Shown piece after piece: positions 45,142 to 50,211 of a DNA stretch of 64,000 nt. The number at the start of each line of letters is the position of its first letter. Position 1 is the first letter of the stretch. The translations under genes were made by a program, and so were the position numbers. Source of the stretch: Verrucomicrobiota bacterium (GTDB lineage: Bacteria > Verrucomicrobiota > Verrucomicrobiia > Limisphaerales > JADLHS01); the NCBI GenBank assembly GCA_029573725.1, contig JAKQDQ010000028.1, forward strand, positions 62,001-126,000, in the 5' to 3' direction. The notes beneath the pieces are model-generated. The model worked only from the letters and a program-made list of their open reading frames with translations, was not told where the DNA came from and made no database searches.

Positions 45142-47988
45142 ATGAAACCAACAGATTGTCATACAACCTCGTCCGCGGCGCATTCGACATTGTCCGGCAC
45201 CCGCCCCGCCCGAAACCGGGCCATCGTGCTCGTGCTGAGCGCCGCGGTGTCGCTGTCAGCCACCTCTGCCTGGGCGCTGCTCTCGGACTATCAGACTGCG
45301 GTGACCAATGAGCCCAGTCTCATTTCCTATTATACCTTCGATCAGTCGGACGCTTCGGACACCAAAATGCTTTATTGGGGCGAAGAAAAGGGAGTTCCGG
45401 TCGCCTACGTTCCCGGCGTGGATGGCGAAGGCATCGCGCTGAGCCTGAACGGTCAGAATTGGATCAATTTAAATTACGCTTCAGAACTCGCGTTTCCCGA
45501 TGGCGACGGCTCCATTGAGACCTGGTTTCGCGCGGGCACGCGCAATTACAACGCCAACTTGTTTGCGAACCGGGACGGCGCCACCCGGTACAGCATTAAC
45601 TTGAACACCGACAAACAAGGCATCGGCATGTGGAATGGCAACGCCTACTTCCCCACCGTGCCCATTCCGGACGCGGGAGCTTCCTGGCACCACCTGGTGG
45701 TGGTGTTTGAAACCAACGACTTCAAGGTCTATCTCGACGGAGCTTATGCCGGCTCGGTGAATCGTCCCTTTGGTGGAAACACCAGCCTGCCGACCCAACT
45801 GGGCTCCACCAGTCCATTTGCCGTGGACGAGGGGTGGGTGGGTGAACTGGATGAGGTCGCTTTCTACGCGGACCCGCTGCCATTGACGGCGGTCCAGGCA
45901 CATTATCAGGCATTTCTGACAGGCAAATTGCCGGTCATCGTGCAGCAGCCGCATGGCGGCACCTACCTGCCCGGAGTCACGCTGAACCTCAAAGTACAGG
46001 CCACCGGCCCAAATCTCACCTATCAGTGGTTCAAAAATAACGTCCCCCTCGCCGGCCAAACGGCCGCAGTACTCACCCTGCCCGGCCTGGGCGCAGGCGA
46101 CGCCGGCGCGTATTCAGTCAAGGTCAGCAACGTCGCTGGCGAGGTCACCAGTGACAGCGTTGCCGTGGCCTTGGAGCCCGCTTTGCCGGCAGCCCTGACC
46201 GCCTACCAAACCGCCATCTCGAACGAAACGAGTTTGCTTTCCTACTACACCTTCGATCACTTGCAGCCACAAGATGATTTCGGTGCGCACGACGGCAACC
46301 TGTCCGGCAGTGCCGACTGGGGCGCGGGACTCGGTGGGGGCGCGGCACAGGCCCTGGCGCTAAACGGCAAAGGTCACGTCCGGCTCGGGGCGGTGCCGGA
46401 TTTTGATTTCACCTCCGGCAGCGGCACGATTGAAGCATGGCTCCGGGCCGATTGGGGAGCGGGCGACACCGTTGCCGATTACCCCTGCCTCTTTGCCAAC
46501 CGCAACGGCGGCACCCGGTGGAGCGTCCACATGAGCAAAAACAAGTCTTCCCTGACTTTTTACAACGGCAGCAGCAGTTCGCTTTACGCCATTCCGGGAG
46601 GGGCCGGTACGAACTGGCATCATATTGCTGCCGTGATAGACGCGGGGAATGTCTCTTATTACTGGGACGGCACACTGCTGGCCACCCTGGCACGTCCATT
46701 GGGCAATGCCAATGTCACGGTACAGCTGGGCTCCTCCGCTGACAGCACGACCGCAGAGGGCTGGTTTGGCAGGTTGGATGAAGTGGCTTTCTACTCGGAA
46801 GCGCTCTCTGCCGCCGCAATCGAAGCCCATTACACCGCCTACGCCGGTAATTTTCCTCCGGAACTGACAGCGCAACCCACGGGAGGGTATTACCTGGCCA
46901 ATCAGCCGTGGCAAATCTCCGTTGGCGCCACCGGAGCGCAACTGAGTTATCAATGGTATCGCGACGGCGTGGCCATTCCGGGCGCCACCAGCGCCACCTA
47001 CGGGGCCGGAGCGGCCAGCCCGGCGCTGTCGGGCACCTACCACGTCGAAATCTCCAATCCCAATGGAACGGTCATCAGCGACGATGTGGCGGTGCATATC
47101 GGCAATAACATCGTCGATTACCAGGAGGCGGTCCAAAACGAGACCAGTCTCATCTCGCACTACACATTCGACCATGAAGACGCGGAGGACGCGCAGGGTC
47201 TCAATCCCGGCACCATCGTGGGCGCAGGTGAAACCAGCGTGACGTTTGCGCCGGGAGCGGGCGGAGTGCCCAACAAGGCGCTGGTGTTGGACGGCACGGG
47301 CCACATCCGGCTCGGTGAGGTGGAAGCGTTCAATTTCTACAGTGGCAGCGGGACCGTCGAAGCCTGGGTGCGCGCGAATTGGGAGAATCCCGCACCGTAC
47401 GACCCCACGATTTTTGCCGATCGTTGGGGAGGTAGTGTCTGGAGCATTCACATGGAACGCTGGAAAAATTTCATCGGCAACTGGAATGGCGAGCGCTTCT
47501 ACCAGCAGCCAGTGTCCGGAGCGACGCAATGGCATCATTACGCGGTGGTCTTTGAAGGCGGCCTCACCAAGATGTATTGGGACGGCCAGCCGGTGGGCAC
47601 GGCGATTCAAGCTCTGAACAACTTCCAGGGACGCACGACCCAGATCGGCTCCAGTGCCCCCGATGTAACGACCGAAGGCTGGATGGGCGACCTGGATGAA
47701 GTGGCCTTCTATTCCGAGGCCCTGGACGAAGCGACCCTCTGGAATCACTACGTGGCCATGACCGGATCCGCACTGCCGCTTCCACCGGCACTGACCATTA
47801 TCTTCAGCGGAAACCAAGTAACCGTGTCCTGGTCAACTGAAGTCTCCAACTTCGAGCTGGAAACCACCGACGACCTGCCGGGCGGCACCTGGACGCCCGT
47901 TCCGGGAGTGGTGAACAACAGCGTGACCCTGGAAGCCACGGGGGGCAGCCGCTTCTTCCGTTTGCGTAAAACCGAACCCGCCACCTGA
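45142..47988 (+). CDS. secreted protein with three LamG and two Ig-like domains
   Basis: 948 residues. Long signal region with a hydrophobic core (RAIVLVLSAAVSLSATSAWA). Three repeats begin with LSDYQTAVTNEPSLISYYTF, LTAYQTAISNETSLLSYYTF and IVDYQEAVQNETSLISHYTF (near residues 48, 352 and 655) and each ends in the LDEVAFYxxxL stretch: LamG/concanavalin-like jelly rolls. Between them lie Ig-like segments (GPNLTYQWFKNNVPLAGQTA; GAQLSYQWYRDGVAIPGATS). A C-terminal beta module (FELETTDDLPGGTWTPVPGV ending FFRLRK) is shared with the protein at the window end. Likely surface adhesion or carbohydrate binding; no catalytic domain seen. Confidence 0.88.
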   Translation: MKPTDCHTTSSAAHSTLSGTRPARNRAIVLVLSAAVSLSATSAWALLSDYQTAVTNEPSLISYYTFDQSDASDTKMLYWGEEKGVPVAYVPGVDGEGIALSLNGQNWINLNYASELAFPDGDGSIETWFRAGTRNYNANLFANRDGATRYSINLNTDKQGIGMWNGNAYFPTVPIPDAGASWHHLVVVFETNDFKVYLDGAYAGSVNRPFGGNTSLPTQLGSTSPFAVDEGWVGELDEVAFYADPLPLTAVQAHYQAFLTGKLPVIVQQPHGGTYLPGVTLNLKVQATGPNLTYQWFKNNVPLAGQTAAVLTLPGLGAGDAGAYSVKVSNVAGEVTSDSVAVALEPALPAALTAYQTAISNETSLLSYYTFDHLQPQDDFGAHDGNLSGSADWGAGLGGGAAQALALNGKGHVRLGAVPDFDFTSGSGTIEAWLRADWGAGDTVADYPCLFANRNGGTRWSVHMSKNKSSLTFYNGSSSSLYAIPGGAGTNWHHIAAVIDAGNVSYYWDGTLLATLARPLGNANVTVQLGSSADSTTAEGWFGRLDEVAFYSEALSAAAIEAHYTAYAGNFPPELTAQPTGGYYLANQPWQISVGATGAQLSYQWYRDGVAIPGATSATYGAGAASPALSGTYHVEISNPNGTVISDDVAVHIGNNIVDYQEAVQNETSLISHYTFDHEDAEDAQGLNPGTIVGAGETSVTFAPGAGGVPNKALVLDGTGHIRLGEVEAFNFYSGSGTVEAWVRANWENPAPYDPTIFADRWGGSVWSIHMERWKNFIGNWNGERFYQQPVSGATQWHHYAVVFEGGLTKMYWDGQPVGTAIQALNNFQGRTTQIGSSAPDVTTEGWMGDLDEVAFYSEALDEATLWNHYVAMTGSALPLPPALTIIFSGNQVTVSWSTEVSNFELETTDDLPGGTWTPVPGVVNNSVTLEATGGSRFFRLRKTEPAT

Positions 47989-48000
47989 GCGGCCTTCACC

Positions 48001-48031
48001 GGCATCCGGAAGCCCCGGGCTTCCGGATGCC
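48001..48031 (+). terminator. strong hairpin after the LamG gene
   Basis: GGCATCCGGAAGCCC and GGGCTTCCGGATGCC pair over 15 bases around a single C, 13 bases after the stop codon. There is no T-run, so it may act as a transcript-end stabiliser or as one of the dispersed palindromes rather than a classic terminator. Confidence 0.55.
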
Positions 48032-48392
48032 GTTGCCAGGCGACGCTTCTGCCTCCGGCCGGGGAGAACCCATCCCCCGCTTTCCCGGGGTGCGCCCGCC
48101 CCCATGCGGGTGGAGAGCAGTCGGGCGGCCAGTTGCCCGCACATGAGCACCCGCACTGATTGGGGAACGCACGCGCCTCGCGGGCGGCGGTGAACGCCCC
48201 GTCCGCTGCACCAACGCGCGCCAACGCGCCATGAGCCGGACAGAACAAGCGCGGCGACCATTACAAAGTGTCTGCGGATCGCAAGACAGCGATACGACGG
48301 GACGCGATCCTGCGCCACGTTCGCGTGGCGTGACTCGAACAAGCTTTGGCCTTGCCCCTGATCCCACTCGGACGCAACAATCCCTTTGAGCC
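48032..48392. other. intergenic region upstream of the ThuA gene
   Basis: About 360 bp without a gene. It contains a 7-bp-stem hairpin CGCCACG-TTCG-CGTGGCG (48313-48330), with a stable UUCG-type tetraloop, about 60 bases before the ThuA start. A leader RNA structure is possible but unproven. Confidence 0.45.
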
Positions 48393-49400
48393 ATGAAAAG
48401 CAAACTCCTCCACGCCGCACTCGGCCTCAGTGTCATGCTGTCGCTGGTCACGTCCACTCTCGCCAAGGACTGGGTCGTCTATGAAGTCACCAACGGCCCC
48501 GGCCGGGGCAAACACATCGTCTTCCTGACCGGCGACGAGGAGTATCGCTCCGAAGAGGGCCTGCCCATGCTGGCGAAACTGCTCGCCGTGCGGCACGGCT
48601 TCAAATGCACCGTGCTGTTCTCGATCAACCCCGCCGACGGCACCATCAATCCCAACATCCAGACCAATACTCCCGGGCTGGCCGCGCTCGATACCGCCGA
48701 TCTCTGCGTGATGCTTCTGCGCTTTCGTGAATGGCCGGATGCGGACATGAAACATTTTGTGGATTACCTGCACCGCGGCAAACCCATCATCGGCCTGCGC
48801 ACCGCCACCCATTCGTTCGCCTACACGCGCCACAAGCAAAGCCCCTATGCGCGATTCGACTGGCAAAACGCCGCCTAGCCCGGCGGTTTTGGCCGGCAGG
48901 TGCTCGGCGACACTTGGGTCAACCACCACGGTCATCACGGGCGGGAGAGCACGCGCGGCGTCATCAACGAAGCCTTCAAATCACATCCCATCCTGCGCGG
49001 CGTCACCGACATCTGGGGGTCGACTGACGTTTACGAAATCGCCCATCTGCCGGCCAATGCTTCGGTGCTCGTCTGGGGCGAGGTGCTCACCGGGATGAAA
49101 CCCACCGACCCGCCGCTGGCCGGCCCGAAGAATCATCCGATGATGCCGCTGGTCTGGACGCGCGAATACACCGGTGAGAACGGCCAGGTCTCGAAGATTG
49201 TGGCCACCACCATGGGCGCGAGCACCGACCTGGAAAGTGCCGGCCTGCGGCGGTTGCTGGTCAACGCCTGCTACTGGGCGACGGGGTTGACGGATCAAAT
49301 TCCGGCCAGCGCCAACGTGGATTACGTCGGCCCGTACCATCCCACTCCGTTCGGCTTCGACAAATATCAGCGCGGCGTCAAACCGGCGGATTTGGAGTAG
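48393..49400 (+). pseudogene. ThuA-domain protein gene interrupted by an amber codon
   Basis: From ATG 48393 the protein starts MKSKLLHAALGLSVMLSLVT (signal peptide) and carries ThuA-like features (HIVFLTGDEEYRSEEGLPML, RGKPIIGLRTATHSFAYTRH). After FDWQNAA a TAG stands at 48876-48878, and the same frame continues PGGFGRQVLGDTWVNHHGHH to the end (VDYVGPYHPTPFGFDKYQRG). In family members a Trp normally occupies the stop position before PGGFGRQ, so TGG to TAG is the simplest explanation. Length without the stop would be 335 residues. Frame and conservation after the stop are intact, indicating a recent change or a sequencing error. Confidence 0.75.
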
Positions 49401-50211
49401 GAGAGTCAGAACCTGCGAACTCGCGCCGCTTCCGCCCGGTAACCGTGAACAAAGTGGAATAGGTCAGCGTGTCTTCTCGCTGAAGATATTTCAGGAAGCG
49501 GTCTTTCAAACTTTCTGCCGCCTTGGCGCTGCCGAGGGCCTTGGTGGCCGCTGGCAGGGCGATGTCCAATTTTGTTTCCCACAGGCGCAAGTTGTGTTCA
49601 TCAATGCATCCGGCGTAGAGATGGTAACTTTCGGCCCGAACTTCGATGTCGCTCAGGCCCGAACTGCTCGCCAGGAAGAAGAGCTTTCGCCCCACGAAAG
49701 GGTCGAAACCCGTTTGCTCCAGGGCGGTCAGCACTTTTTTGAGGTCCGCCTGCAAAATCGGATCTTCTGGATGATGCCAAAGCAGTTGCCCATCGAGGTC
49801 CTGCAACAATACCGTGCCCTCGGAACGGCACACGCGAACCATCTCCCGGACTGCCTGCTCCTTGTCGGGCAAGTATTCCAGCAGGAACCGGCAGTAAACG
49901 AAATCAAATGTTTCGTTCGCGAACGGCAGCTTGGTGGCCTCACCCTGGCAGGTCTGAGCATTTTGCAAGTGTGCGAATGTGCTCCTGGCTTCAGCGAGCC
50001 GGGTTTCACTGGCATCCAATCCCGTGACAACGCAATGCGGAAAACGTTGCGCAAGGGCCGCGGCAAGCACTCCAGGCCCACAGCCAACGTCCAATACGCG
50101 TGTCGCGGACCGCGCATGCCGCGCATAGTGGGCTTGCACCCAAGCGGGCGCGTCCACCTTGCCCGCAAGCCTGCGGGCTTCACGCGGGTCTTCCATGAGG
50201 TATTTGCTCAT
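49378..50211 (-). CDS. class I SAM-dependent methyltransferase
   Basis: 277 residues. Motif I VLDVGCGPGVLAAALAQRFP, then VTGLDASETRLAEARSTF (motif II), LPFANETFDFVYCRFLLEYL (motif III region) and VRVCRSEGTVLLQDLDGQLL. The C-terminal half, including GCIDEHNLRLWETKLDIALP, likely sets substrate choice, which cannot be inferred. Its 3' end overlaps the ThuA reading frame by 23 bases on the opposite strand. It follows the desaturase-like gene by 78 bp on the same strand. Confidence 0.85.
   Translation of the reverse strand: MSKYLMEDPREARRLAGKVDAPAWVQAHYARHARSATRVLDVGCGPGVLAAALAQRFPHCVVTGLDASETRLAEARSTFAHLQNAQTCQGEATKLPFANETFDFVYCRFLLEYLPDKEQAVREMVRVCRSEGTVLLQDLDGQLLWHHPEDPILQADLKKVLTALEQTGFDPFVGRKLFFLASSSGLSDIEVRAESYHLYAGCIDEHNLRLWETKLDIALPAATKALGSAKAAESLKDRFLKYLQREDTLTYSTLFTVTGRKRREFAGSDSPTPNPPV

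Follow-up and report, generated by a model that had tools for sequence, protein, structure and literature searches.

A ThuA-like gene (48393-49400) in the window, the 64,000-nucleotide stretch of DNA that was analysed, is interrupted by a single in-frame amber codon. We read this, with a probability of roughly 0.63, as a recent nonsense mutation; the genome has two sister ThuA-like copies, of which this is one, and the nonsense allele is possibly polymorphic still. Codon 162, which is Trp in close relatives, would have been converted to TAG by a recent substitution, translation would halt in mid-domain to leave a 161-residue fragment, and an intact sister copy on another contig would probably render the loss tolerable. 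A fresh nonsense mutation was one of three options raised by the first-pass annotation, beside an assembly error and stop-codon readthrough, and is favoured here by the TGG of the close relatives, the intact sister copy and the absence of recoding signals. As a kind of event the interruption resembles a commonplace, newly arisen inactivation of a gene, or else a miscalled base, with no new reading of the code.

The amber codon lies exactly where it had been claimed, between FDWQNAA and PGGFGRQVLG, and the claimed absence of a frameshift was borne out (Table 1). The gene follows a single frame from the ATG at 48393 to the TAG at 48876 and is then open up to its own terminator, also a TAG. The read-through protein spans 335 codons, with 161 before the stop and 173 after it; both parts match one family with no change of frame, and tblastn alignments to relatives pass straight over the stop. 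A chance pair of open reading frames is ruled out since the halves of one domain stay in register over a single codon. By inspection, the N-terminal half opens with a hydrophobic stretch resembling a signal peptide. A scan of 48000-49700 returned no promoter-like sites and one terminator-like site, which was on the opposite strand and did not exceed shuffled sequences. Upstream, at 45142-47988, is a 948-aa protein with three Laminin_G_3 stretches and immunoglobulin-like domains.

Table 1. Features at the interrupted ThuA-like gene (window positions)
Feature	Coordinates	Strand	Basis
ThuA-like N-terminal half, 161 codons	48393..48875	+	reading frame; relatives align across
Amber codon TAG, codon 162	48876..48878	+	stop at this column in 0/90 relatives
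ThuA-like C-terminal half, 173 codons, with terminator TAG 49398-49400	48879..49400	+	reading frame; Pfam
Earliest in-frame start candidate after the stop, GTG	48900..48902	+	reading frame
GC-rich inverted repeat with the TAG within its 6-base loop	48870..48887	+	repeat scan

The read-through protein shares the ThuA family Pfam PF06283, scoring 38.9 bits and thus above the gathering cut-off of 33.4, while the C-terminal half alone scored 28.9 bits, below that cut-off, and the N-terminal half alone reached no Pfam family at an E-value of 0.001. NCBIfam models gave no matches to the protein at the same threshold. The closest PDB entry by both sequence (E 1.1e-4) and fold was 4e5v, a putative ThuA-like protein of Parabacteroides merdae, which is a distant match (Foldseek E 2.2e-8, 14% identity, TM-score 0.48). 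Seven PF06283 matches were found in the genome, and the window copy and its sister are both absent from that set; for this reason ThuA is a loose label for these proteins. An AlphaFold2 model from 41 rows (40 relatives drawn from the 90 loci, plus the window protein) predicted one confident domain (mean pLDDT 92.3, pTM 0.89) with an alpha/beta fold of five strands ahead of residue 162 and five behind it. In the same rows, 26 invariant columns were N-terminal to the stop and 19 C-terminal. With the predicted fold and the conserved columns lying on either side of the stop, the 161-residue fragment, which would be deprived of the second half of the fold, is most likely inactive.

The relatives were drawn from 80 loci kept of 114 found, nine matches in genus-mates and one further copy in the genome itself, 90 in total; the genus was sampled as six genomes, one per species, comprising this genome and five genus-mates. 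None of the 90 relatives carried a stop codon at the amber column, so that the stop is premature where functional relatives have a sense codon. The residues at this column were F in 38 loci, W in 35, a gap in eight, P and K in three each, M in two and Y in one, where the two most distant loci (L089 at 31% and L090 at 27% identity) have unreliable residues. Among 14 close relatives compared codon by codon, all 14 had TGG at codon 162. The Trp expected at this position by the first-pass annotation was therefore upheld among the close relatives, whereas across the 90 loci W (35) is no more frequent than F (38). Codons 160 and 161, just ahead of the stop, were also private to the window copy, the stop being the third changed codon in a row.

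The genome holds an intact sister copy (L002, contig C71) with 76% identity to the window copy. The two were sisters in an 85-row tree (UFBoot/SH-aLRT 100/93), with end branches of 0.25 for the window copy and 0.26 for L002, and their clade also takes in copies from four genus-mates. L018 (too short), L044, L050 and L051 (a stop within the aligned stretch) and L089 and L090 (less than 45% identity) were left out of the tree. No other version of the window locus was present in the assembly, as a search with the N-terminal half returned only the window locus and the C71 copy. Relative to L002, the N-terminal half had a dN of 0.152 and a dS of 1.78 and the C-terminal half a dN of 0.154 and a dS of 1.26, where dS is near saturation and the contrast of dN with dS alone is meaningful. 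The low dN/dS is a pattern of purifying selection and, as it is still present in both halves, suggests that the amber stop is young.

Conservation of the two halves, which had been described as full, held for the strictest columns and not for the next tier. All 54 columns conserved in at least 97% of loci were retained in the window copy, while it departed at four of the 93 columns conserved in at least 90%, compared with zero to two departures in seven close relatives (88 of the 90 loci, those with at least 45% identity, were counted). Private residues numbered 37 in the window copy, the stop included, and 41 in L002. These alignment counts are at most a hint of relaxation in the window copy, and one that does not single out the C-terminal half. 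With so little relaxation, and none peculiar to the post-stop part, the stop would be recent or else an error. The window copy resembles the nonsense alleles surveyed by Belinky et al. 2021 (PMC7918605) in having one in-frame stop in a conserved gene with a signal of purifying selection remaining, and it is also like the short-lived young pseudogenes of that study, although here a single genome is considered and not a survey.

A base-calling or consensus error, with a sense codon as the true base call and an intact gene, is the main rival, unlikely but to be taken seriously. The remainder of the gene looks intact, without a frameshift and with the strictly conserved columns kept, and beyond the stop and the mild excess of departures no decay is visible, which is the picture that one miscalled base would give. 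In addition, the private codons 160-162 are sited at the GC-rich inverted repeat, and some sequencing platforms make errors at such repeats. Against this, none of the tests gave a sign of an error as such. The cluster of changed codons is not extreme: depending on the relative, of some 310 three-codon windows between 2 and 28 differed at least as much, and a 100-kb part of the contig has about 4.3 hairpins of a comparable kind per kb. The gene has two such hairpins, and the inverted repeat at the TAG is probably there by chance; a local mutation cluster associated with the hairpin was considered a weak candidate. The contig, C30, is also 355 kb in length, and the assembly has a stated completeness of 96.05% and contamination of 1.76%. 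Moreover, MFS_1 proteins of the same genome had no internal stop among the 24 matches listed of 28, which also indicates that broken genes are not common throughout this genome. As for an origin in a methylation hot-spot, CCAGG and CCTGG occurred on contig C30 near expectation (observed/expected 0.91 and 0.94); six matches to the cytosine methylase family PF00145 were found in the genome.

A useful readthrough, in which some ribosomes would pass the TAG to make a little full-length protein and the stop would lower expression, is improbable. Both halves look selected by dN/dS, and Belinky et al. 2021 (PMC7918605) argue that in-frame stops are widespread in the genes of bacteria and that many are not pseudogenes. 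The same article has most such stops lasting only briefly, however, and the low dN/dS measured against distant copies would largely reflect the period that preceded the stop. The stop is shared by none of the 90 relatives, and RNA structure around it was ordinary, with z-scores of 0.00, 1.31 and 0.00 that were no better than shuffles; the 80 nt of 48840-48919, which contain the inverted repeat, had a folding z-score of 0.00. An amber suppressor tRNA had been proposed as a check, and a CUA anticodon was found in 0 of the 48 tRNAs of the genome (all 48 tRNA matches were run through ARAGORN); there were no tRNA genes within the 64,000-nt window. Release factor RF1 is present (478.6 bits, cut-off 423.25). 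Neither a conserved stop, nor a suppressor tRNA, nor a recoding signal was thus seen at this locus, and the suggestion of readthrough gained no support. A more specific form, in which the amber codon is a real and selected dimmer, near-cognate readthrough leaving a trace of full-length protein while the sister copy does the main work, is very unlikely. It is scarcely credible that the gene has been split to yield two peptides that then assemble. The second would begin at the in-frame GTG eight codons past the stop, but no ribosome-binding site was seen by eye ahead of it, the resulting piece would be without two strictly conserved residues, G165 and G167, a single confidently predicted domain would be cut in two, and none of the 90 relatives is split. 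Recoding of amber as an amino acid in the lineage can be regarded as effectively excluded. Its lead was a sulfatase of genus-mate G004 (L186:1146-2720) that has two in-frame TAGs besides its own terminal TAG, and whose genome also has an intact paralogue. In five relatives, the first in-frame TAG faces W in four and F in one, and the second faces H, R, F, V and V, so the two fit no single meaning. TAG as Trp in the genus was rejected on the second and because 164 kb sampled from G004 gave no TAG junction that survived filtering. TAG is a usual terminator, ending 22 of 172 long ORFs on contig C30, 20 of 85 in the G004 sample and the ThuA-like gene itself. For pyrrolysine, the best PylS score was 26.8 bits against a family cut-off of 178.15, and a control was above the cut-off in one of 14 genomes.

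A recent nonsense mutation consequently remains the preferred reading, and the locus is best annotated as an interrupted gene copy whose sister is intact, neither as two genes nor as evidence of recoding. The relevance beyond annotation is small, with the caution that lone stops in single-genome assemblies should not be read as readthrough without the sequencing reads.

Other interrupted genes were encountered in the genome and the genus. An internal stop was carried by two of 10 sulfatase (PF00884) matches in this genome versus one of 131 in the five genus-mates. The sulfatase at C30:205564-207159, outside the window, has a single in-frame TGA (C30:206290-206292; L160:6290-6292) where Gly was present in all eight relatives reaching the site of the nine compared, and its C-terminal half finds intact relatives in genus-mates G001 and G002. 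With the G004 sulfatase, these cases show that single-stop copies alongside intact relatives are an ordinary sight in the genus. A survey of contig C30 for same-frame junctions flagged 11, two of which were the broken ThuA-like and TGA-bearing sulfatase genes; sorted by eye, three others were taken to be ordinary neighbouring genes and six were presumed to be probable antisense shadows. The second interrupted sulfatase of this genome (C30:288878-289339) survives as a C-terminal remnant that bears one TAA and lacks a clean frame upstream; a tRNA-Met gene, at 288437, is about 370 bases away.
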